Assembly (NCBI RefSeq): GCF_018320785.1
Contig: NC_054867.1
Location: forward strand, 23,687,855-23,751,854
Reading direction: 5' to 3'
Length of the DNA stretch: 64,000 nucleotides
Source of the DNA: Cheilinus undulatus
Lineage: Eukaryota > Chordata > Actinopteri > Labriformes > Labridae
Position 1 is the stretch's first letter, and the number at the start of each line of letters is the position of its first letter. Of the stretch, positions 14,801 through 57,406 are shown piece after piece. Made by a program: the position numbers and the translations under genes. The notes beneath the pieces are model-generated. The model had not been told where the DNA came from and searched no databases. It worked only from the letters and a program-made list of their open reading frames with translations.

Positions 14801-17072
14801 CGCATCTTTGACTCTACATCTGATTCTGTGACTCAGAGATGTTTATATTATCATTTATCAACTTTACATAGATTATTGTGTTTTTACCCTCCTTGACTTA
14901 TTCATTAATCACTTAAATGTTGACATACTTATGTTGATTCCATCTTCAAAAATTAATCACATAAAACTTGAACTGTGGATGCTGGATGTTGTAGTTTCCC
15001 TAAATTCATACATGCTCTCTGCTATACAGTAACAAGAGGGTTTATCACTGCAAGCATAAATCATGCTGGAATAAATAGGATGTAGTGACAAAAGAAAACA
15101 CAGGAAAGTGTTTTGATTTAGCAGTCCCCATTTTACCAAGATTATGTTTGCTCAGTGACAACAAAGAAGTGTTTAATATATCGAAATATGACTATATAGT
15201 GATGAAGGCTGAGGTATATTCTTCAGTTATGGAAAAGGACATCCAACCAGATGTTCACAAAAAAGATAAAACTTATGAAAAAAGTAGTGTTAGCAAGAAT
15301 CAATACTGAAAGGTCACGTGAGTGCTTTCTTGTGATAAGCCTTGTTGAACACAGTAAGGATCTGGTGAATTTGCTTTAACTGCTAAATGTCGATATATTC
15401 TGGCAGAACTTTATGTGCAAAAATAAAACAGGCATTTGGATGTTGTTGTTTTTCATTTAAAGGGTTTAAAGTGTCTGTATGATTTTTGTTGAATAAACAA
15501 CAATAATAATAGCATAATGTTTAGCTTTGTCAAAAATTGAGTATTGTGTTAAGTGTACAATCAGCTAAATGTGCAAAAACATGTTTAAAGACAACACACT
15601 CATATGTAACACCTGCTGACCGCAGTCTGGGTGGCCATTAACTTACATGGTAGACACACCATGACCAAGCACATCCACTGATTGCTGAGTCAGTAAATGA
15701 CACTTCTTATTTCCATGTTCCCTCTTACTTTTAGCTGCTGCGTTATGAGTTTCTGCCACATGTGATGTTGGACTTTTTTTTACCAACCAGCAAAAATCAT
15801 GTCTGAGTTTTTAACCGAACTTGTTTACATTTGGCATTTTCCTGTGCAGGCTGGGACACACTGTTCAGTCCACACTGGAGAAGAACCACTGTGCTGATGG
15901 AGCTGCACTAAAGTGAAAGAAAAATATTAATATATTTAATTGATTGAGTAGCAGTCTCTTTCCATTGCGCAAACATAAAAAGTCCTTGGCAATATCTCCA
16001 GTGCCAGAAATATTTCAAGTTGGAGCACGTTTTTTTAGGGAATGAGGTTAAATTATGTGTGCATGTCTTCTTTCATTGTGTAGAAGAATGATGACAGTGC
16101 ATGGCCACATTTCGTTTCTTTCCTCCATAAGGTCAGCTAAGGTTTAACAATGTAGAACTTTAAAAAGCAATAAAATTGATTAAAGCACATTGTGAAGTCA
16201 TTAACGCAGAGTGTATAGATATGAACCAGTAAACTTTAACCAAATCTCAAAGGTCAGCAGCACGGAAACAACACGCAATTTACTCTTACATAATTCAGCT
16301 GCAAGCTGCGCTTTTGGCAGACCTAAATGTTATTCACTGTCTACATTCTGACATTATGTTTGATCATCAAAAAGTTTAATAAAACATTAACAACACACAA
16401 ATAAATTACTAATTTAAAAAAGGGATGAAACATCATAAACACTCAGGACTGTTGAAATAATCTACTCGTTTTTAAATGCCACTATTTTTAGCAAAGGCCT
16501 GCCATTAAACACCACTTTATAAGTAATTTTTGACCTAAGTTTGGAGCTGTATGCATTTAAAACCACTGTATTTACTAATTTACCTACTGTGTTAAAAATA
16601 GTTCTTCCAAGTATTCCCAAGGTGGTCATTTTAGGTCACTCAAAGACTGTTGACCCAAACTGATACCTAGCAATTTAAGAAAGGACTAATAAACGACCAG
16701 CTTGAATAATCTTTAAAAATGTGTCTGCTTTTGATGAAACTGTAGCTCTTTCTTCATGTCTGCCCTTCAGAAACTACGTTTTAGTGATCACTGGCTGCCT
16801 CGTTGATACCTTTATCCTCTAATAGCTCGTTGTAATGCAAAATGTAGATGTAAACAGCTACATGTTAATTAAAAGACACCTATGGTGAGCACATTCAAAG
16901 AAAAATGCCATAGTTATGTAGGTACGGTTTTGTTTACATTACCTGACAGTCCTCCCATGGCTGCAGTCCACGGCTGCTTGAACACGATGTTCCACATCAG
17001 GAAAGCAGAGAAGCCCATGAGCATCCCGAAGGAGGCATAGCCGATACTAATGTAAGTTTTATTAACAGCCAT
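11854..17072 (-). CDS. slc48a1: Haem transporter HRG1 (slc48a1), 3 exons, 144 aa
   Basis: Coding exons are 16943-17072, 14241-14408 and 11854-11990. All have GT-AG borders, phases agree (1, 1), and the sum is 435 nt. The protein is the proton-coupled haem exporter of lysosomes and endosomes, which moves haem from degraded haemoproteins (for example in macrophages) into the cytosol. It is 144 residues against 146 that I recall for human. Four hydrophobic segments are visible at about 10-32, 40-58, 70-95 and 108-127. The block [19 protein letters not shown] (51-69) is nearly identical to human, and His54 corresponds to the haem-related His56. The C-terminus DISILSDF is identical to the human tail, which carries the endolysosomal sorting information. 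The start is the only ATG fitting the family N-terminus. Teleosts often have two slc48a1 paralogues; I cannot tell a from b. Confidence 0.95.
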
Positions 17073-17240
17073 TATCACAAAAAAGACAAAAACAAAAAGG
17101 TCTACGGTGGGCAGAGACAGGAGCTCGACAAGACAAGCGCGAGCGTGTTTGTTTGAGCGATCGAGCTCGAGATTTCAAAACAGCATCCGGTTACTCTTCA
17201 AACAGGCGCGAGAGGACAAAATGTCACAAACTAAATGTGC
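17073..17240 (-). promoter_or_regulatory. Probable slc48a1 5' UTR and promoter region
   Basis: The sequence directly upstream of the slc48a1 ATG is richer in CG dinucleotides than its surroundings ('gacaagcgcgagcgtg', 'gagcgatcgagctcgag', 'caggcgcgagagg'), as expected of a CpG-type housekeeping promoter. I see no TATA box at a convincing place. The transcription start cannot be fixed from sequence. Confidence 0.45.
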
Positions 17241-18827: not shown

Positions 18828-18833
18828 TTTATT
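18828..18833 (-). promoter_or_regulatory. Candidate polyadenylation signal of the YqaJ-type gene
   Basis: AATAAA on the minus strand, about 560 nt beyond the stop codon at 19393. The intervening 3' UTR includes a run of 17 C on the plus strand at 19190-19206, which would be a G run in the transcript. Confidence 0.45.
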
Positions 18834-19392: not shown

Positions 19393-22095
19393 TTATAATA
19401 GACTTGGCAGGTAGTAGTAGAAGAAGAAGTCTTCCAATTTCTTCTTCATGATGTCGATGATGACCTTGTCTCTGTAGATGCGTTGAACCAGTATGTCTTC
19501 GTTGGAGATTACAAGCAGATCACACCATGACATGCCCGCTATCATCATCTCTCCTTGGACGTGCCAATACAGAGTATGGTCCTTCTTCAGCTGCAGCATT
19601 CCACCCTGGCAGCTTAGGAACTTTCCGTCAACAAAGCTACGGGACTGGATACATTTAACATGAACCAGCCCAAAACTGGGCGTCTCCTTTGGGTCGTACA
19701 CCAATCCATCAGGCAGCGCTCCCAGCCACGGGGCATTTGGGTGAATGACCAGGCCACAGGGTGACCAGTTGACACACACATTGCGACAGTATTCCCGTAG
19801 TGCTTCAGCCTTCATTTCCTCGTCTATCTGGGCTGTCTTGCACTTTCTGACTCCGCTTTGAATCTTGTAGATCAGATTCTTTGCATTACTCTGTCCAGGG
19901 TTAAATTTGCAGATTTCTCTGAAACGGCTGGTCAGGCGCTGCTTCCGCATTTCCTCGGCTACCTCTTTCTGTCCGTTTGGAGGACGTGTGGAACTCTCCA
20001 GACTTTGTGCTGTGTCCCAGTTGATTTGCATGGCCTTTAAACGCTCTAGCTCTTGGGCGCTAAGGGTCGGAAATTCAGATAACGGCTCCAATATGTGTTG
20101 AGGTAGGGGAATCTCTGGGCGAGGGGGAGCATCATTATGAATCTGATAATCCTTAATTGATGGAACAGGGTGCTGGTAGGACAAGGGAGAACCTTTGGGG
20201 ACTTTACCGAATGCACATTCCACAAAGTCCACTTCTTTACAGATGCCCATTTTAGTTATCAGAGGTTTTTGGTCTTCCGGAAAGTCTTTGAACGCTTCAG
20301 TCAGCCTCTCCAAAATGGACGGACAATCAGATAGGTCAGGAATGACAGATTTGAAGGGCATCATCCTGAAAAAGAAGTAGGATTTATTATCATTTATATA
20401 AGCAAACAGGAGGCCACGCAAAAAAATTCTAACGCAGCATAATTTAATTCTTACCTTGGTAATTCTAGTATGGTTTTCTGCTGGGAGCACTGCTTCTGTT
20501 TTGGAGCACAATTTTCACCAAAGAGAAAAAAATTAGTTACCCAATGCTTTAGGTATAAAAACAACCCAATAAACTAGTAATAGCTGCATGACATTTAATG
20601 CATTAATGTATATTATATGATCACTTTCAGGATACAACATCTTTAGACTTCAAACACTAGTTTGATTAGGGGTTTAGAAGAAAATTTTCAACATGTGCTG
20701 ACAAGACTTACAAGGCTTTATTAGGCCATACCGGGTTTAATAATATTTTGTTTTGTCCATCCACAGTCTCAGAATATATCTGAGAAAAATATAAACCAAG
20801 TGGACACTCAAATGTTTTTCAAATTTATCCAATGGTTACCCAAGCAAACATGTCCTGTGAACTTACAGGTCAGGAAATTTATACAAAATCATGTTTGTAG
20901 TGAAATAAATACTACCACATATGTTTTGTGTCAAATTCAAAACAACTATAATGTTTTGCTACACAACACCCACACTTTTTTTTTTTAACCATATCTTTGA
21001 TTTTCTGGCAGTGAGTGTTTACCGTTTTCTGTGGCTTTTCATTGCGATTTTGAGAATCCACGCTTTCATTCGAATTGTCTTCACTTATGGATAGGTGTGG
21101 GAAATCTGCTAGAGCACCTGAGTCCAGGGAGGAAACATCATCTTCATCATTAATCACTTCATCAGCTGAGACGGTGCCTGAAGTGTCCTGATGAACCTCT
21201 ACCACTTCAATAAGACAGGATTCAGTGATGGGAGCCAACTCTGAGTCTGGCTCATCTTTTACACAAGATGTCGTTATAATGTTAGAAGCTTCCCCCAGAG
21301 GTGGTGGTTGTTGTTGTTGGGCTGATCCCCAACCTATGTCATATTCGATTTCCTCTTCTTTAGGGCATGCTGGCACTGGCTCTGATAGTACCATGCTTTC
21401 CTCCCTGGTGTAATCTGGGAAGTGGCGTCTCATCCCTGGGGTTGCTCCAGTGTGCTGAATATCATCATCTATTTAAATTTAAAATAGAAAAATATATATA
21501 AATTGCTCTGAGGGCATTTTATACACCCATGCATGAATCTGATGCATACTGAGGCTTACTTAAGTGGATCAACTAATGATCAAATTTAATGCTGGTATCG
21601 TCTCACTGTACACCCAGAAATGTCCTAGGAAGACTGCTTTGGATGCAAAAGTTACAAAATTGTTTCCCTCAATTACATTACAGAATACAAGTAAACTTCG
21701 AGGATTAAACACACCAAGTATATAAGCGGAGGCTGGTTTAGCCAGCCGGCATTAGCTGGGCATTATTAATGTTCAAGTATGCACTTCATCAGCTAGCTGG
21801 ATCGTTTTCGCCGCCATTCGTGGTCATATAAATGTCCAAGTGCTGTTTAACAAACATACACGCTATTTTATGGTGACTGGGGTCAGTGACAAGGTAAGTT
21901 TAAGAATAGATACAAACCTATCCTCGGTAACTTTATCTCGGGGTTGACCACCATGTGCAGGACATTACGCAGACGTTTGTTTTCCTCGTAGTACGCCTCG
22001 ATAATAGCTTCAACCTCTCCGAAAATTTCCACTGCCACGGACGTAAAACGTTCGGTCAAAAAGCTGCGGAAATTCTGATGTCTAATGCTAGTCAT
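19393..22095 (-). CDS. YqaJ-type nuclease-domain protein, 4 exons, 545 aa
   Basis: Exons 21918-22095, 21023-21468, 20455-20495 and 19393-20365 have GT-AG borders and compatible phases (1, 0, 2) and total 1638 nt. Residues 1-59 (MTSIRHQNFRSFLTERF..., VNPEIKLPRI) resemble the coiled first exon of many fish C2H2 zinc-finger genes. Residues 60-221 are acidic and low complexity (QQQQPPP near 104-110). Residues about 363-540 form a lambda-exonuclease/YqaJ fold: LTSRFREIC (366-374), CGLVIHPNAPWLGALPDGLV with Asp441, FGLVHVKC (453-460), LYWHVQGEMM and a tail EDFFFYYYLP. Such enzymes cut DNA with a D...E-x-K triad. Here the glutamate position is His457 while Lys459 remains, so catalysis may be lost. 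The frame is open throughout and introns are clean, so this looks like an expressed host gene, possibly domesticated. I know no assigned function. Confidence 0.85.
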
Positions 22096-22260
22096 TTTGA
22101 CGGCTATATTTTTTTATTAAAAGTTGAAATTATTTCCTTTTTGCTCGACTCCTACGAACGACGCGCGCGAGTCAACCGGAAACTAGGGAAAAAATGTCTT
22201 CCGGTGTAAGTTCTACTCAGCTTTTAGGTGGATTACCGCCACCAAATGTCCTGAGGTGTT
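22096..22260 (-). promoter_or_regulatory. Probable promoter/5' UTR of the YqaJ-type gene
   Basis: The 100-150 bp upstream of the ATG contain a small cluster of CG dinucleotides ('tacgaacgacgcgcgcgagt', 'ccggaaac', 'cttccggtgtaag'), including an ETS-like CCGGAA and its inverse TTCCGG. That is common in TATA-less promoters. No other gene starts on the opposite strand. Confidence 0.4.

Positions 22261-22478: not shown

Positions 22479-22526
<48 letters not shown>
22479..22526 (+). repeat. (TATC)n microsatellite
   Basis: About twelve perfect tetranucleotide units. The repeat produces an artificial YLSIYLSIYLS string in one frame, which is not a protein feature. Confidence 0.95.
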
Positions 22527-22527
<1 letters not shown>

Positions 22528-22634
22528 GTCTTCTGTTTCAACCATAGAAACAAACAAACCATTCCACATTCAGTTTAAGTGGTGGGTGGGCCTTTGGTGG
22601 CCCTTTGCTTCTGATTGGCTAGTGTGGGTCATTA

Positions 22635-24344
22635 CAGTTTTTCTCAGTAGCTTTGGTGCATTTCTCACATCACTATTAACATTTTCACAACAGTTAGTTC
22701 AACCTCCACAACATTTAGTCATTTGTGCACATCATAGTAGCACTTGCTCATTCCTTCCAACAAATTGCAAATGCTTTTGGACATGCATCAATTGCTTTTA
22801 TACAACTCTCTGCTGTTTTATAACATTATCATTTGCTTATGTCATATCTGTCAAAATGAACTATACTTGTGAATGCTGAATAGTCATTCCCTGTAAAACT
22901 AATAGTCCTCATTTCATTGCTTGAGTCATTACATACAAAACTGTTGAACCAGTTGTCAAAATCTGTCAAGCAAATTTTATACATTTTTTAAATCTTTTTT
23001 TTTCCTGAAAATGTCTCCTAAATTGAACATTTGCTCTCAGGTGAACCTCAGCTTTCACTGATGAGACGGGGTGTGTTAAGCATTAGCCACTTCTCCACAG
23101 TCACTCAGAGCTGAATCCCATGAACCCCCACTTTACAAGCATATATGAACCAAGTAGGACATAGTGTGTACCATTTCTACAATACTGTGACACAGAAATA
23201 GAAGGTCAGCCTCGTGGAAGAGGGGTGAGGATGTGGGGAGGAAGGGGAAGGGGACAAAACAGGGGAAGAGGACGAAGAGGCCAAGTACATAGGCGGATTC
23301 CTGATGAAATCAGGGCTGCAATTGTGGATCATGCTGTCAGTCACGGCCTCACAATGGCTGAGGCTGGTCAAAGGGTGCAGCCAAATGTTGGGAGAACCAC
23401 TGTAAATTCAATTATTCAAACATTTCATCAGGAGAACAGGTGTGTATGATGGACAGTAATTCAGCACTAAACAATCTGCACCGCATTACTGTCATTGTGT
23501 CATACATGAAGCTTGCAGTGGGACAAGAACTTGTTAGTACATTTTACATTTAGACTTACAGCTTTACTGCAGCACAGATTTAGTGTATTGTAGTGTACAG
23601 TAGTGTTACAGTAAAGATGTGCCATATTTACTGTAATTTTACTCTGCACCACATAGGATTGCAAGACAACCTTGCAGAGGTGGAAGAGGGCCCAGGAACA
23701 TCTGGATGTGCATGAATGATTTACAGTACTGTGTATGTTGTATGTTCAGTTCCAATATATACTGCAATATTGTTTACAGTTGTGCACAGCTCTACCCAAC
23801 GGGAATTTATGTTTTTTGTAAATAAGGGTGTGTTTTTTCTTTTGCACAATGCTGTGAACAAATCAGAATTGCAAAGAGCATATGCAATAAAGATGTGAAA
23901 CATAATATTCAGTGTCTTGTACTCAGTTATCTCACTAAATACAGTAATGTCTTACTTTACTGTAGTTTTCAAATGGCTGTGTAAATAGTATATAGAACTG
24001 TCTTGAGCATTTCTGGTTAGTGTCACCAAGATCTGCCTTTTTGCATTAGAAAACACTTACAGAGTAAACTGTCATAATGAAAACATGACAAAGCCATTTG
24101 ACCCATTTGACTATCTTGTTCATAAACAATGGTGTCAGGACTTTTCATCTTGATGACACTGACACTTTCATTGATATGAATACTTACTTTTGAGGAATGA
24201 ACTATCCATTTTGGGCAAGTGACACGCTTTTGCAGGCTATCAACTAGGTTTTGCAGTTTGTACTAATTGTTTGAAATGCATTAACTGTTGTGCAAATGTA
24301 AATAGTAATGTGAGAAATGCACCAAAGCGACTGAGAAAAACTGT
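22635..24344 (+). mobile_element. Tc1/mariner-superfamily deletion derivative with long TIRs
   Basis: The left end (cagtttttctcagtagcttt from 22635) and the right end, read backwards from 24344 (cagtttttctcagtcgcttt), are long inverted repeats. They continue through 'ggtgcatttctcacat' and 'cacaacagtta'. Both ends abut TA (22633-22634 and 24345-24346), the target of this superfamily. Inside, 23225-23449 encodes RRIPDEIRAAIVDHAVSHG, LTMAEAGQRVQPNVGRTT and VNSIIQTFHQENR, a helix-turn-helix region of an IS630/Tc1-type transposase. A GT...AG pair (donor after 'gagaacag' near 23440; acceptor 'acatag' near 23655) would join it to IARQPCRGGRGP. The DDE catalytic region is missing, so the copy cannot act alone. 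Confidence 0.82.
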
Positions 24345-26787: not shown

Positions 26788-31288
<4,501 letters not shown>

Positions 31289-37253: not shown

Positions 37254-40200
37254 TTAAGACTCAGACTCAATTCTGTGGGCTGAAAGACAAAAATAAATAG
37301 AATTTCATCACAAATGCATTCATATTCTGTGGGCTGTTGTAACTAGGTGCAGCTACATGATAATACTTTATACTAACATTGCTTGGGTATCCTTAGTGGC
37401 TCAGTGTCTGCAGAGATGACTTGGTGCATGACACCTCTGAACTGGTACAGTAATTTGAGACTTTTCTCCTCTCCCACACAGGGGTCGTAGAATCCTGGCA
37501 GTCCAGCCTTAATACAGAGGAGGAAATAAATAATATTTATGTATTCATGCAGAACTGTAGGTAGTCAAATGGGACATGTAAACCCACGAACCTTAGAAGA
37601 CTCTGTGAGGATGAGTTTGGAGTCTTTGACCAGGCACTGCAGAGGCACGGTGACATCAATCACCTTTGCTTTTTCCTGCTTCTGGCTGGTGTCAGACACA
37701 AACTTTCCGTACCAGGCATTCAGGATGATCAGGCCTAAACAAAAGATAATACAGTTTATAACATATAAAGCATTTAACACTCCTGCTTATTGGCTGGATA
37801 TCATTACAATGCTTTCTAATCATTGGACAGTGTGCCTACAGCAGGATGAACACTTTCAATAAAAAACTAGCAAAATAATCACAGCTCCTCACATATATTG
37901 GAATAAAACTTTAAAAACTATTGGCACCAATTATTGTCTCCAGAGATCCTCAGTGGGGATTGGACAAAGTTCCAGAGGGACAACTTTCACTGCAGCCCTC
38001 CATTGATCTGCTTTATGCCAGCTTTATGGCAGAGGGGCTAGGTGGAAGCCTCTCCTCAGTGTAAAACACACAAAAGCCAGCTTGGGGTTTCAAAAAATGT
38101 ACTTAAAGGACTCTCACACTGTGAGAAACAAGACACTCTGGTCTGATGAAACCAAGGTGGAACCGTTTGGCTCACCACCTACCCTGTACCATCCAGACAG
38201 TAAGGCACGGTGGTGGCATCATCATGCCATGGGGGTGCTTTTTAGCAGCAGGGACTGGGAGACTGGTCAGCATTGAGGAAAAAGCTGAGTGGAGCAAAGT
38301 ACAGAGAGATATCCTCAATGAAAACCTGCTCTGCAGTGCACAGGACCTCAGATTGGGGTAAATGTTCACCTGCCAACATGACAATGACCCTAAGAACACA
38401 GCCAAGAGAACAACTCTTTCAATGTCCAAGAGAGGCCTAGCCAGAGCCCTGACATGAACCCTATCCAACATCTCTGGAGGGACCTTAAATGGCTGCCCAC
38501 CAACAGTTCCCATCCGGCCTGACTGGGCTTAACAGGGTTTGCAAATGAGAAAGGCAGAAAATCCTTAGATTCAGGTGTTTTTAAAACTTGTGCACCATAT
38601 TAAAAAAGGCTTGAGGCTGTAATTGTTGCTAAAGGTGCTTCAACCTAGTACTGAGTAAAGATCTGAGTATTTATATTAACGTGATAGTTCAGCGTTTTCT
38701 TTTTAATTAATATGCAAAAAAATCTGTTTCCACTTTGTCATGATGGGGTTCTGAGTGTAGATTAAAAAGAGAAAAAATGAATGCAAACAATTTTAGTATC
38801 AGGCTACAACATAACAAAACTGAAAAAAGTGAAGCAGGCCTGAATGTACTGTATACCTTAGGAATTGTACAAAAATAGAAGAAAAAATGATTGCACTCAA
38901 CACAGCTGGTAAAAAAAAAAGACTAATTCAGGAAACTGCAAACATAGGAAAGCTCGACCGTAAAGGGCACTTACAAAAATGACTTTGGACATTTACAAAA
39001 TAGAGAGGAAACTGTTTGTTTTCAGTCAAAACAAGACCCATGAAACTAATGGATGTTATTGAGTTAATTATGTTTGAAAAGTGTTGAAAAAATGTACCTA
39101 GAAAAAATTTAACATCAGAGTGGGCCAGGGCACTCTTAAATTTAGGAATGACTGATATATGCTTTAAGTTTTCTATGGTATGTTATATTTTATCAAAGGG
39201 CTTCAAGGAGATGCATACCTAGACTATCACTTGCTACAGAGCAATAGATGATTGAGGTCAGACTTAGAAAACACGATTTTTCAAGCTGCAGTAGATCACG
39301 TAGTTAAAGGCAACCATGAGATATGTGCTTGAACTACAGCCTTTGGATTTTTTCCAAGTATACCCGTCTGTAAGCTATAAAAAAGTTTCCTTTTCCCACC
39401 CTAGTGTAGTTTGTGTGTCACTGTGTGTGTGTGTGTGTGTGTGTGTGTTTGTGTGTGTGTTCTCTCACCCATCTTGGATTCTTCCGCCTCTATGATTCTC
39501 CTCACAGACTCCTGCATCAGCAGAACCTGCAGAGGAGCCGAGGGAAGAAGAGGAGCATGAGGAGGAGCGAGAGAGAGAGGAGGAAGACAAAACAGAGCAG
39601 AAAGAGCAAGGGTTTTTTTAGACGAGACGAGGGGAGCTGAACTTGGAAACAATGATCAATGCCCTCTACAGACAGTTTGAGTGCGTCTGCATGTGCCTGT
39701 GAGTACTCACAGCAGTCTCTGCCTCCTGCTTCTTCTTGGCGATGTCTGTGGCTGAGCTCTTTCTCTGCAGCTCCAGCTCTCTGAGAGGCACAGAGACACA
39801 TGAAGCAGACATCAGCAATGAGCCAACAGGAGTCACTGGAGAGGCTCAATGTGATAAGTGAAGGTGTACGCGTGAAAGACAGTCACTATAATGTTTAAGG
39901 CTCCAGTGAGGAGCCTTTTTCAGTGGTTATAGAATAGAATGAAATGATACATTCACCTATAAAACCAAACAACACCATCAGCAACTACACTGATTATTTC
40001 TATTTTGTTAGAGAAAGCAAGGAACAACATGCTGCTTTCCCCTATGGACACCAAACTTAACACAAAATTAAAGCTCAAGACAGAAGCTTTAAGCAAGCCT
40101 TCCCTATTCACCAAGCATACAATTAATTGAAATGGAAATTTTATAATTCTCTGTCATTGTCAAAGAGATTTGCTTCCTGGGTGTTACATAAAATTGTTGA

Positions 40201-43200
40201 GGGAGGTCAAAATGCAAAAAAGGAGCTTCAAAGGGAAACTGAGCAAATGATGAAAATGAAGTTTATTTAATGCTCTTTCCACATGAATAGATTTAACATA
40301 TATGTGAAGAAAAGACTTGTGTACTGACTCCTCCTTCTGTGCCCGTGTATATGGGATGATGACCAGTCTGTGGACAGCCATGTAGAACAGTAGCGGTCCA
40401 ACAGTGGCATAAAACACAGCACTTGGCAGAAGCTGATCTGTCAGGTGGACTGGAAACAGGTATGTTTGACTGGCACGCACCAGCCTGCATGGAAACAAGG
40501 GTACAGATTTATACACACACGTCAGATAATTACGCAGAAAGGCAAAGACCCACAGAGGAATGAGCTCATATTTTGGGTTGGGCCAGTACTTGATCTTGAG
40601 CGTGACTCCCTGAGGGACCCCGATGCTGACAGTCGCTGACAGGACACTGTGTCGGCTGATCTTCCTCTCTGCTCCATATTCCACCACAGTGCCGAACCAG
40701 CCCGTCCTGGAGAGAAGACAAAAATAAACAGAGACCATGAGTGTTGGGCAGAGTCAGTTACACAGCCTGAGCTACCAGAGGTTAAAATGATCAGGGATCA
40801 AATATGTGACAAATTCACTTTCTTCAACTTTCACATTTTTGTTTATTGTTAAGTTCATTTTATTTCTATTTATATGTTATGCTTTACTTAATTTTATTCT
40901 CCCACAGTATGTTGTGTTTGTACTGTTTCTATCTATTTTTGACTTGCCTCTTGTTAACTGCTTAACTTTATTAGGGGTTGTTTAGACAATGCATTTTCAT
41001 GGATTAACAATTATGGCACTCAGATACAAAGTGACTGCACTTTGTACGTCTATCAATAATATGCATTAAAAATACATCTTAAGTGATGAGATTAAATTTG
41101 AACTCACTTGTCCATACTTAATTTCCGTGGAGAAGAGGCCAGCCGTGCCTCTTTAACAGCTTTTCTCCCTTATTTCATCCTAAAAATGCTTTTCAAGGAT
41201 GCAGTGATATACCAAGCCTCATTTTTGAGGGTTCCAACATTAAATCTGACTGCCAGCCAAAGTAAGTCATTTAGTACAGAAAAGGTTATTTGAGATGCAA
41301 AAAGCAGACACACGTACTTCACAGAGCCTTTAACTTTGGTCTGGTCTTCATCCTGGAATTTATACTGGTAGCTCATCATCAGGTAGGAGTGAGGAACGCC
41401 AAGCTATGAGAGAATGTATACAGAATGTAACAAATCTTAAAGTTACATAGGTCCAATTTCAGTTAATTCAAAAACCAGGTTGAATATAATGGCAACAGGA
41501 GGTATTTATGAAGCTTAGCATTAGTTCATGTAGGACAAAGAGGTCATACACCCAGCTGTGACCAGCTGATGGCCAGCTGATCCCAGTTATCACCTTCCAG
41601 CTCTCATAGTCATCATAGCTCTTTTTCTCAACACAGCAGCATATTTAAATATGACGTCCCTCTCACTAATCCCTGCTTCATCAATGCTGATGCATCACAC
41701 TGCTGCTGCTGGTAAAGCTTCACCTGCTCCACCCTAGCCTCCTCTTTAACAGCATAAAGCTTGCTGCACCCTCATTTTCAGATTCATGCTACTGTGGATT
41801 AATTGCTTCTGAACTTATTTTATTATATTCAACATGCATTGACACAAATGTATCTATCCATATGGAGGTTTCTAGCTATGTGCTCCCTGGAAGGTCAAAG
41901 CATGCTGCTTGACTAACCCAGGAGGCATCTTTTGAGCAGTCATCACCACCCAGGAAAACTGTATATCCATTTTGCAATAAATGGTTGAATGTATGACAAG
42001 AGTGTTCTTGACTGAACTGTGCTTGTGCCTGTTTATACCTGCAGAGCGAGAGTAAAGTGGCTGCTTTTTGTGTCTCGGACCAGGCTAGTTGTCATGGCGC
42101 TGTTGGGTCCCCAACGCCACTGTAGATAGCCCATTGTGTTCTGGTCCAGGTGGCGTGCTGTCATCAGAGAACAGCTTGGCCGTAAACCTCGAGGAGAGAA
42201 CTGCAGACCACACTGAGCTGTCAAGAAACTGGAAAGAGAAAAAGCAGGGGGCAAAGGAAGAGAATAACAGGAAATCTTGTTCACATGCCAATAAAGTTCA
42301 TGTAACATTCACCTGTGTCAAACTGTGTAGCCTTACCAACGTGTAGTGACGTTACGAAACACCTTTAATCCAATGAGAGGTCCAAGTATGTCTCCTGCAC
42401 CAAACTCCACCTACAGATAAGAATGCACAGAAACAGGTGATTGCAGTCGGACATGTCTAATCTACAAAAACAACAGCAATATATTTACTATCCTACCGTA
42501 ACATCTAATATGCATGTTCAATATTCTTTTTAAAATACCTTTGAAGGTTGTAAAATATTTCATTTTTATAAACTGCATGTACTTTGTGGTGCATACCTCT
42601 CCCCATCCCTTGGCTGATGTAACCCTTCGAACAGTCATGTTAATGTTGCCCCCTCCATTCCCATTGTGTGTAGAGAGTGAGCCTGACAACACTGCTGTGT
42701 CGGAGTTTGTCAAAGGAGCCTGCAAAAAAAAAGAGAAACGACAACTTAGTAAAACAGATAACACTACAGCGATCCTGGCTCAAGCTGTGCATAACGTAGA
42801 TACTATGAGTGTATGTGTGCTTCGTTGTACCTCTATGGACTGTGAAATGTGCATCTTGTTGATTTCAATATGAGGAAACCCTCCTCCTGGCATCTCTTCA
42901 AAGTCTTCATCATAACGGTCAAACAAGTCTGTAGCGTCCACACCCACGCTGATGGTGCCCTGAATAATGACGGAGTAAAGCAGAGAGATTGGCAGAATTA
43001 ATTAACAGAGATAGGAAGGATTAGGGACATCATGAAATGAATGTGGCAACCATCTACAGCAAATTCTGTGACAAAACGCTTTCATCAATATCTGCATGAA
43101 TAGGTGGCCTGCACAAGAAATACACTGAAAGCAGTGACTTTTATATGTAATTTGAAGTAGTTGTGACCGAGAAAACCTTAGGGTTAGTTCTTTGCTGCAG

Positions 43201-44457
43201 TCTCCTCTCTTCTCTTTCTCTCTGAAGTCTTTCATACTCCTCACGAATTTCTGCTGGTGTTCTTTTTCTCTCCACCACCTACATGCCATAACAAAAATGT
43301 AAATAATGAAGATAGGTTTAGATTGTAAGTGTAAGATAGCAACAAAAAGCTTATGATGCACAGAATACATACCTCCCAGCCTTCAACCTCCAGTCCTTTT
43401 TTCCCAAAGATGTCATAGATGGCTCTAGAGTGATCATCACTCAGAACTAAGGGGAAACAATGGTTTAAGCAGATCTTTAATATAAAAATTTTGATTTTTC
43501 TGCTTTTGTGTGAATTTTCTGATTCAATGCTATGGTGCTGAGAGGAAACACTTTCATTTTAAAATCAATTTTGAAGTGGGATCCCAGTAAAAATGAACAT
43601 TTCTTGTTGGTGTGTAGTCCTTGTTTACCTTCATATGCTTGGTGCACCTGGTTAAACAGCTGTTCAGCCTGACTTTTCAGTTCAGGATCTCGATGTTTGT
43701 CAGGATGATAGAGCATACATAGCCTCCGATATGATGCCTTTAGTTCCTCTAATGTAGCCTGTAACAAGAGAGAGCAGGGGAAAAGCCTGGAAAGGTAAGG
43801 TCTTAATATATCATCTTATGATGTTTTTTTTTAGGAGGTTCTTGTTTTAACAACACTTAAACTCAATTACTTCTGTTTGGTGAAAACAAGATAGGACATC
43901 TTGCTATTATAACCTGAAACCACCAACTTAGTGTCAGTTTTACTAAACAAAATGACTTGGAGAAATAAAATGTTAATCTAATTTGTCGAGGGTGACAGCA
44001 TGAACACATGTTTACCTTACCTAACATTATCTACATGATCGTCCGAGTTTAAGTACTTTAGACAGGCCTGAGTCTCCATGGTTTAATGAAACCTGAGATC
44101 TAAGAAAGTGCTCACCGACACACAAACAATTACTTTACGCTTGCTATAATTACTATACTGCATGCTGTTATTAAAGAGATGCTGTAATATCCTGCACATT
44201 CATGCTCTTGCTGCATCAGCCGGCATCATCTTACAAGGATGGTGCGGATGAAGAAGACCGTTACTCATCTGAAGGATGATGCACCGATGCCCACCGTTTA
44301 CCTGCTGAAAATCCATTCACTGAGACTCACAGAAAAATGTCAGTAACTATTTGGCTTCATTGTTTAACAGAATTAAGCGTACCTCTTTCCTAACGTTGAG
44401 AAGAGAGTAGTAATCCTGATTATTAGACTCAAAATCATCATCTAAGGACGCCGCCAT
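37254..44457 (-). CDS. dnajc11: DnaJ homologue C11 (dnajc11), 16 exons, 560 aa
   Basis: Exons from the start: 44383-44457, 43629-43758, 43373-43446, 43177-43278, 42831-42959, 42597-42719, 42337-42410, 42039-42228, 41318-41403, 40590-40706, 40329-40484, 39711-39780, 39469-39526, 37592-37734, 37378-37507, 37254-37279. All have GT-AG borders; phases agree and the sum is 1683 nt. The length is 560 aa against 559 that I recall for human. The J domain (about 14-82) has the Hsp70-activating HPD at 43-45 in [12 protein letters not shown]. The middle is predicted beta-rich and contacts the mitochondrial outer membrane; LRPSCSL..., GYLQWRWG and [10 protein letters not shown] are conserved. The C-terminal DUF3395 holds [18 protein letters not shown]. 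The protein joins the mitochondrial bridging (MICOS-SAM) complex that shapes cristae. The last exon codes for only HRIESES after a split Ser. The ATG overlaps a CpG-containing promoter (gacgccgccATG). Confidence 0.97.
37900..38870 (+). mobile_element. Tc1-like transposon remnant in a dnajc11 intron
   Basis: Lies antisense in the intron between the dnajc11 exons at 39469 and 37734. The plus strand encodes broken pieces of a Tc1-type transposase: [13 protein letters not shown], then [34 protein letters not shown], and a degenerate NDPKNTA and QHLWRDLKW. It ends in 'gaggctgtaattgttgctaa', 'acataacaaaactgaaaaaa' and 'gtgaagcaggcctgaatgta', the family's right terminal repeat. Stops and frame changes show that it is inactive. 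The left terminal repeat is not recognisable. Confidence 0.88.
39422..39460 (+). repeat. (TG)n microsatellite
   Basis: Nearly perfect TG repeat that ends 8 bp from the splice donor of dnajc11 exon 13 (on the minus strand the donor GTGAGAGA is followed by ACAC...). Expansion here could affect splicing. Confidence 0.93.
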
Positions 44458-55500: not shown

Positions 55501-57406
55501 GTATCAGCAGATATTAGACCCAAAAATAATATAGATACAAACATTTCTGCATACATGTAGTCAGAATAAATCATATATTGGCCTCAAATAGCAGCAAAAA
55601 ACATAACCATACCACCAGATATAGGTGGTTGCGTAATGCACCACACACTCAAGGGAGCCCACCACGAGCCCTGAACATTTTTAATTAATCCCCAAATCTA
55701 CTCCAATCTAATCCAAATTTATTTAGAAAGCACACTGAAAAAGATGATGACCAAAGTGCTGTACAGTAAAACTGAAAAAAAAAAAAATCCTATTTTGAGT
55801 AATGAATACAGCTGTACATCATCAGCACAGAGATAAAATATTATTATTATTTTTAATATGGACGCCAGGGGAAAATATAGAAAGAAAAAAAGAACTGAGC
55901 CAAGTATGGAGCCCTGGGGTGCTCCGCACGAAAGCAGGACTGAGGAGGGGGTGACATCACCAAGGCTGACAGAAAAGCTCCTGTCAGCCAGGTAAGACTT
56001 GAACCCCTCCAGTGCAGTACCTTTTATCCCCACCCAGCGCTCAAGACGAGAAATTAAAATCTTGAGATCCACAGTGCCAAAAGCAGCTGTAAGATCGAAA
56101 TGCATAAGAACAGCTGAATCCCCAGAATCAGTAATTACTAAAATGCTGTTTAAAACCTTTAAAAGTGTTGTTTCAGGGTTGTGTAGTGCTTTAAAAACAG
56201 ACTAGAAAAGCTCAAGGATGACGTTTGAGTCTAAAACTTTTGTAGTTGACTATAATCAACTACCACAACTTCCCAGATACTCTCTCAGCTCTGTTTGGCT
56301 CAGCCTCTCTTTTCACCGGAGACATTGGGTGTTTTTTTACAATTCAAAAAAGGTGTGTGTGTGTATATTGGTTTCAGTATTGGCTGCAGTAAGTTTGGAA
56401 ATATCAACATACTGCGTATCAGCAAAAATGTGATGTTAATAAAGAATCACATTTTTATTAATAGGGAAAATGTAGGACTTTCAGTATGTCCATAACGTGA
56501 TTACATTTTTAACAATACAGCACTTACGAGTATCAACATTTGACGTCTTTATTTGTGGACTCAAGTTCATGTACGAGTTAACTCTCAGAAGAAGCCTTAT
56601 CTTGCGTTTTTGTTCCATTATCAAATTGTCTGTGAAACACTGTGGGGAGAGCACTGCTTTTAAAGGGGATAAAGAGATGCCCAGGTGATTGGCCTTCTCC
56701 ATTGTTTCCAAACCCAAATGCACTGTTAATGTATGATAATGGATTCTTCTTAATCCAAACCTGTCTCCAGGTGGGCCGCAGGTGCACTGTGCACCTCCAC
56801 CTGCTGTCCTAAAATAAGCAACACTCCCTCTGGCCTACTTACTTATTTAACCGTTGTTTATACCGTGTACTTTTAACCACAAACTCATCAACCATCCTTG
56901 TCTACATCGCTGTGAATCATCAAAGAGTGAGTAAGGTATAATTAGACAACTTACATAAAGATGAAGCGAATTAAAACTGTTCATGGGTAGATTTTCTGTT
57001 TCTTCTCTTAGTTGTTAGGGAATAACAAAAAGCAACCATGTCTAATTGAGTTTGTTTACTTGCAAAGAAAGGGTTATAAGAGCAAATTTACTTGCTTGTG
57101 GTCACATCGGGCCTTTAAAAGTATCTCACTATAAACATTTGTTATGATTTATTCTTCTAGATCACATAGATGCTGCGTTTTCGTATTCTCCACTCACCAT
57201 GTCTCAGTGTCTGATGAAAAATTTCTCTCCTCTTCCCACTCATCCCTCATTTATCTTCCTTTATCTTCCCCCTGTCCTCCCCCACCTCTGATTCTGCCCT
57301 AGATGAGCCTGGCCAGTTGAAGATCTACCTTCCTAAGAAGCTGCTAGAGTGTCTGCCCAAATGTTCCTCTCTGCCCAAGGAGCGCCATCGCTGGAACACC
57401 AACGAG
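49570..57406 (+). CDS. camta1: Calmodulin-binding transcription activator 1, 5' part (3 exons)
   Basis: Exons 49593-49617 (coding part), 51570-51665 and 57303-57406 read through in one frame: MAAENKPE-G, then LKKIRNPERMVRIAVGYTG... and N-EPGQLKIYLPKKLLECLPK ending RHRWNTNE. The last stretch is the beginning of the CG-1 DNA-binding domain and matches human CAMTA1 (KIFLPKKLLECLPKCSSLP). CAMTA1 is a nuclear transcription factor with CG-1, IPT/TIG, ankyrin and IQ regions, important in neurons and cerebellum. The rest lies beyond the window; exon 3 ends in phase 0. Exon 1 also carries an upstream ATG at 49570 in another frame (MRRAAEGKWLPKTSRK), which matches the human long-isoform N-terminus as I recall it. 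With either visible downstream exon that frame stops soon, so it needs a different second exon, which I could not find. Exon 2 is 96 nt with equal phases, so it can be skipped in frame. I cannot tell camta1a from camta1b. Confidence 0.92.
49618..51569 (+). other. camta1 intron 1
   Basis: Nearly 2 kb between the first two coding exons. It begins with a GC-rich continuation of the promoter and then TG-rich tracts (50005-50045, 50160-50195). No other gene or second exon for the long isoform was recognised. Confidence 0.55.
52676..52850 (+). repeat. Polypyrimidine tract
   Basis: About 175 bp almost entirely C and T on the plus strand (cccccctcttccccctgctt... through ctccctcccatccctctatc), interrupted by few purines. 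Such tracts can adopt triplex (H-DNA) structure. Similar but shorter tracts lie at about 54360-54490 and 58860-58990. Confidence 0.8.
54076..54130 (+). repeat. Short tandem duplication, 26/29-bp units
   Basis: Unit 1 (54076-54101) tttaactaagctgcacca... and unit 2 (54102-54130) tttaactaagctgctgca... are the same apart from a 3-bp insertion and one substitution. Each unit ends with ttcagctg, an E-box CAGCTG. Confidence 0.85.
55124..55318 (+). mobile_element. tRNA-derived SINE, second copy
   Basis: Same family as the copy at 1.15 kb but on the plus strand. Similar parts are an A-box-like tgacctagcggttagg, 'ctgtttctgagtctatccac', 'tcctctatcaaataaaggca' and an A-rich end. The B box (agttttaagtcc) is degraded, and the flanking duplication is reduced to an imperfect 'acaatt'. 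It is older than the first copy. Confidence 0.8.
55715..56215 (-). mobile_element. L2-clade LINE fragment (reverse-transcriptase region)
   Basis: The minus strand encodes ETTLLKVLNSILVITDSG, then MHFDLTAAFGTVDLKILISR, WVGIKGTALEGFKSYL, GAPQGSILGSVLF and CADDVQLY. These are the RT core blocks of L2-clade ORF2, including the catalytic ADD. Substitution of F-D to F-G in block A and frame breaks show that it is not active. Ends are unclear. Confidence 0.85.

Follow-up and report, generated by a model that had tools for sequence, protein, structure and literature searches.

The stretch of DNA analysed here, 64 kb long and referred to below as the window, carries on its minus strand a predicted gene whose four exons, joined by sequence with GT-AG at every exon border, give a frame of 545 residues (window 19393-22095) free of internal stops (Table 1). 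The splicing of these exons bears out the uninterrupted four-exon, 545-codon frame described in the initial annotation. Exons 2 and 3 together encode residues 60-221, with a pI of 4.1, and this peptide, searched against the source genome, finds no match beyond itself. Joining exon 2 directly to exon 4 leads, by eye, to a stop after nine codons, and a pair of ATG codons at the start of exon 4 may provide an alternative, shorter protein. A (CTAT)n simple repeat (window 22480-22530) adjoins the CpG-rich start of the gene, and an open frame just upstream (23165-23449, plus strand), with no Pfam match, resembles the beginning of a transposase-type protein. A scan for bacterial-type promoters was uninformative for the window gene. 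Elsewhere in the window, neighbouring host genes are represented by an HRG haem-transporter-like exon (16917-17174, minus strand; 24.6 bits, under the cut-off of 27), a PHD-finger gene (29274-31285, plus strand), DNAJC11-like exons (40187-43815, minus strand; DnaJ over its cut-off, the DNAJC11 beta-barrel at 25.2 bits, under its cut-off of 27); there is also a reverse-transcriptase remnant (55722-56201, minus strand; RVT_1 at 27.2 bits, under the cut-off of 29.6).

Table 1. Features of the predicted gene, in window coordinates.
Feature	Position	Strand	Remarks
CpG-rich stretch	21951..22250		At exon 1 and the putative start; CpG o/e 1.57
Exon 1	21918..22095	-	59 codons plus one base; similar to N-terminal exons in C2H2 zinc-finger genes
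Exon 2	21023..21468	-	Acidic linker
Exon 3	20455..20495	-	41 nt; keeps the frame; splice signals only; the least certain exon
Exon 4	19393..20365	-	Coding 20365-19396, stop 19395-19393; YqaJ/lambda-exonuclease-like domain
Lys407 (AAG)	20144..20146	-	Place of lambda-exo Glu85, by LHK-Exo alignment and copy counts; coordinates from the exon 4 frame
Asp441 (GAT)	20042..20044	-	Kept; place of lambda-exo Asp119; bases derived by hand, residue number preferred
His457 (CAT)	listed as 19660..19662	-	Place of lambda-exo Glu129; bases derived by hand, residue number preferred
AATAAA hexamer	18828..18833	-	559 nt past the stop; possible poly(A) signal, by pattern only

The Pfam profile YqaJ (PF09588) matches residues 361-500 with 24.0 bits (E 5.2e-5), barely over its cut-off of 22. 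Exon 4 was modelled with AlphaFold2 (mean pLDDT 66.3, low outside the domain; pTM 0.60), and the best Foldseek matches of the model are LHK-Exo (E 1.7e-10) and lambda exonuclease (E 1.1e-7); the model is weak in the N-terminal part of the domain, because alignment A2, in which 27 of the 28 distinct relatives were used (L074 left out), apparently misplaces that part. Profile and predicted fold thus place the domain in the YqaJ/lambda-exonuclease family, as had been proposed.

The residues D441, H457 and K459, with CAT at 457, read from the frame exactly as had been claimed. In the alignment with LHK-Exo, K407, D441, H457 and K459 fall on LHK positions 68, 102, 112 and 114, which correspond, with a constant counted offset of 17, to lambda-exo residues 85, 119, 129 and 131. 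Compared with these enzymes, whose predicted fold it shares, the window protein has 220 extra N-terminal residues and, while keeping the Asp119 and Lys131 positions as D441 and K459, is changed at the other two of the four catalytic positions: Glu85 is replaced by Lys407 and Glu129 by His457. Among 31 copies from the same genome, position 457 is Glu in 26, Val in two, Asp in one and a gap in two, and His in none of them; this count omits eight loci, two being the window itself (L009 and L039) and six repeating places already kept (L004, L005, L007, L032, L034 and L038). Position 407 is Glu in 24 of the 28 readable copies, position 441 Asp in 27 of 29 and position 459 Lys in 29 of 29, and Gln490, found in 25 of 28, is likewise His in the window gene. 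Viral and bacterial loci have Glu at the 457 position in 38/38 cases with a printed motif (39 loci, 11 of them duplicates; no motif was printed for L074). As the codon of His457 lies two nucleotide changes away from GAG or GAA, an error in one base cannot account for it.

With each copy's help, and without the window gene, 33 strongly conserved columns were defined, seven of which differ in the window gene (397, 407, 457, 487, 490, 494 and 505); copies of the nearer subfamilies differ at 0 to 4 of these columns and the five distant copies at 3 to 12. At five active-site columns the changes are enriched to a borderline degree (one-sided Fisher 0.052). Poisson figures calculated for six altered codons were set aside, since those codons had been picked after the changes were seen; for the four lambda-exo positions only, arithmetic puts the chance of three or more nucleotide changes among their 12 sites at about 0.02, given 0.05 substitutions per site.

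These changes bear on whether the protein still works as a nuclease, with His457 or some other residue as its metal ligand; the initial annotation had left open the use of a different ligand. Asp441 and Lys459 are kept, as is a lambda-exonuclease fold in the structural prediction. In that enzyme the metal is bound by Asp119 and Glu129, as stated in the excerpted text of PMC3118119, and mutants of Glu85, Asp119, Lys131, Trp24 and Arg28 are described in parts of PMC7496540 as having wholly or nearly lost activity, single changes of Glu85 or Trp24 being sufficient; DNA binding is hit hardest in channel mutants. Against a working enzyme stand the Lys at the Glu85 position, which disfavours an alternative metal ligand, the His at the conserved Gln490 and an apparent Ala358 at the place of Trp24; this last assignment, like that of Arg362 to the place of Arg28, both in the 5'-phosphate pocket, was made by eye with a one-codon gap allowed. 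We consider a working nuclease very unlikely.

A YqaJ profile search of the 1.17 Gb source genome, which its gene content suggests to be that of a fish, returned 33 places, the window gene not being among them. With exon 4 as query, 45 matches were obtained, of which one is the window itself and the remainder lie at 29-47% identity, and the 2.9 kb gene, searched as DNA, has no second match in the genome (a search in which simple repeats and very frequent words are passed over). THAP and/or DDE_Tnp_4 coding lies beside YqaJ in all six copies that were examined with some 10 kb of flank (L050-L053, L058 and L059; by Pfam for L050-L053 and L058, by tblastn for all six); in a seventh, L102, opened with 5 kb of flank only, transposase was not found. 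Since THAP/DDE_Tnp_4 coding beside a YqaJ ORF2 is the make-up printed for the Harbinger-like ISL2EU elements in the excerpts of PMC4482050 and PMC9179366, we relate these copies to ISL2EU, and in its sequence the YqaJ domain of the window gene resembles ORF2 of these transposons. Three YqaJ copies on another contig (G000:C20:15925778, 15952187 and 15988000), which score equally and have 360-363-residue open frames, are possibly recent ISL2EU copies; transposase coding adjoins the one that was opened, L058.

The window gene differs from its relatives in its surroundings and in its other parts. Transposase queries that detect all six transposon stretches give no match better than E 0.052 in the 64-kb window. 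A SWIM pattern precedes YqaJ in five of the six transposon copies (L058 being the exception) and is absent from the window protein; searches with SWIM peptides gave no match below E 0.24 in the window. Nine further places in the genome match exon 1 at E <= 1e-3 (best 4.8e-7), and at all six of those that were followed a C2H2 array, with 5 to 15 fingers per frame, lies downstream on the same strand; no such array is present in the window or in the seven transposon stretches. Three of these exon 1 alignments were tested and scored 99-111, against 42 for the top shuffle, and the four first exons shown all have, like exon 1 of the window, a GT after a phase-1 G (predicted donors). The CpG ratio over exon 1 stands against a median of 0.28 and a 99th percentile of 1.07 for 300-bp stretches across the window. 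The gene thus looks like the start and first exon of a zinc-finger-type gene joined to a transposon exon, and in the predicted splicing the putative host exon is in frame with the transposon domain.

The same joint could belong to a still mobile ISL2EU subfamily that carries a zinc-finger-type exon and has its sole copy here, so that no fusion with a host gene took place. Exon 4 and its acceptor do look transposon-derived (in the two transposon copies shown, an acceptor-like AG is seen by eye close to where exon 4 has its acceptor). Such a subfamily is nevertheless extremely improbable, given the single DNA-level match, the 64 kb in which transposase was not found, and a comparison of positions in which none of the nine other exon 1 matches coincides with a listed YqaJ place.

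The gene might also be a transposon remnant in decay or a pseudogene of recent origin, its frame open by luck, its exon 1 coincidental and its changes neutral, a reading to be weighed against that of a gene kept by the host. Many of the same-genome relatives are broken: the 6469 aligned codons of 26 nearer copies contain 49 stops and are interrupted by 13 frame breaks, with 145 of 1404 conserved positions changed (five distant copies, L001, L002, L003, L006 and L008, are left out of this count). The window gene, changed at 17 of 57 conserved positions, has no stop where 11.9 are predicted, a prediction inflated by subfamily divergence; although subfamily divergence is confounded with decay in this comparison of stops with conserved-column changes, its outcome speaks for a frame that has been maintained. 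Four copies (L010, L011, L014 and L028) are likewise without stop or frame break, so an open frame alone is no proof.

A branch codon model of 296 exon 4 codons in 14 of 16 copies (the short L028 and L030 omitted) gave an omega of 0.025, a saturated value, for the window branch, 0.60 for the tips of broken copies, 0.21 for stop-free tips and 0.117 for inside branches; a first, shorter fit had given an omega of 0.051. An omega of 1 on the window branch was rejected in this set (2dlnL 15.6) and again in a set of nine sequences (2dlnL 15.6), whereas with the eight nearest sequences it was not (2dlnL 1.9). Among the controls, omega was 0.058 for the broken copy L017, 1.57 for the broken copy L027 and 0.137 for L019, which has no stop and one frame break. 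As L017 is broken with an equally low omega, and as neutrality is not rejected with one subset, we rejected the branch models as proof of selection in a host phase; the low omega of the window may come from the transposon phase. Relative to the tied model, a neutral tail costs only 1.3 log units at 0.10 substitutions per site and 2.2 at 0.15. The room for such a tail is narrowed by the open frame: the chance of no stop in 545 codons is 0.034 at 0.05 neutral substitutions per site and 0.0012 at 0.1. With the broken relatives, the failure of the codon models to demonstrate host-phase selection and the low cost of a neutral tail on its side, and the stop-free frame, the zinc-finger-type exon and the CpG-rich start against it, a remnant or pseudogene seems to us unlikely.

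Taken together, these data are best explained by a domesticated host-transposon fusion gene whose nuclease domain is catalytically dead and whose product is probably an adaptor that binds DNA, a reading that we hold to be probable. To judge from homology, a lambda-exonuclease-type accessory (second) protein of an ISL2EU-like element would have come under the start and exon 1 of a C2H2 zinc-finger-type gene. On the lineage of this gene, as alignment and model show, Lys407 has replaced a residue like Glu85 and His457 one like Glu129; the predicted fold has been retained, together with Asp441 and Lys459. Judging by the published lambda-exo mutants, the resulting protein should not cut DNA, and it most likely still binds DNA or itself through its YqaJ domain. 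In what is the weakest step, the helical N-terminus and acidic linker would meet partners and the protein would act as a DNA-binding regulator. The domesticated, non-cleaving protein of the initial annotation is thus supported in part, by the single DNA-level match, the lack of transposase and SWIM matches in the window, the zinc-finger-like exon 1, the CpG-rich start and the two changed catalytic positions; the codon controls do not separate selection as a host gene from that of the transposon phase. A self-taming gene, in which the dead YqaJ protein, with its N-terminal part from a zinc-finger protein, would enter rings of the intact ISL2EU nuclease or compete with it and so repress its source transposons, is suggested by analogy with mixed lambda-exo trimers containing inactive subunits, which are much less active (excerpted text of PMC7496540); we regard this role as decidedly doubtful.

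The window gene shares features with several known systems and differs from each of them: (i) like ISL2EU ORF2 as printed in parts of PMC4482050 and PMC9179366, it has a YqaJ domain, with the identities to same-genome copies given above, but it lacks the adjoining transposase and the SWIM motif, starts with a zinc-finger-type exon and has Lys and His at two catalytic positions. (ii) KRABINER-type host-transposase fusions, as described in the excerpts of PMC12062965, similarly combine an exon of a host regulatory gene with a domain of a transposon protein; the captured part is the transposase in KRABINER and an accessory nuclease-type protein here. (iii) In plants, ALP2 is likewise a host gene acquired from a Harbinger-like element's second protein and not from its transposase, although its source is a Myb-type protein, not YqaJ; the function of ALP2 has been tested. 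(iv) The FiNZ genes of cyprinid fish are zinc-finger genes in which a separate exon encodes an N-terminal domain; this domain, of 28 residues and unique to cyprinids in the portions of PMC10547256 that describe it, is likened to exon 1 by description only. Among the matches listed from the open-licence literature there was no published domesticated YqaJ/ISL2EU gene, and the additional proteins of ISL2EU-type transposons have no known function according to the excerpted text of PMC4482050. If our reading is true, an accessory nuclease would join the list of transposon parts captured as host genes, and the non-cutting functions of a transposon YqaJ protein would appear to be useful by themselves.
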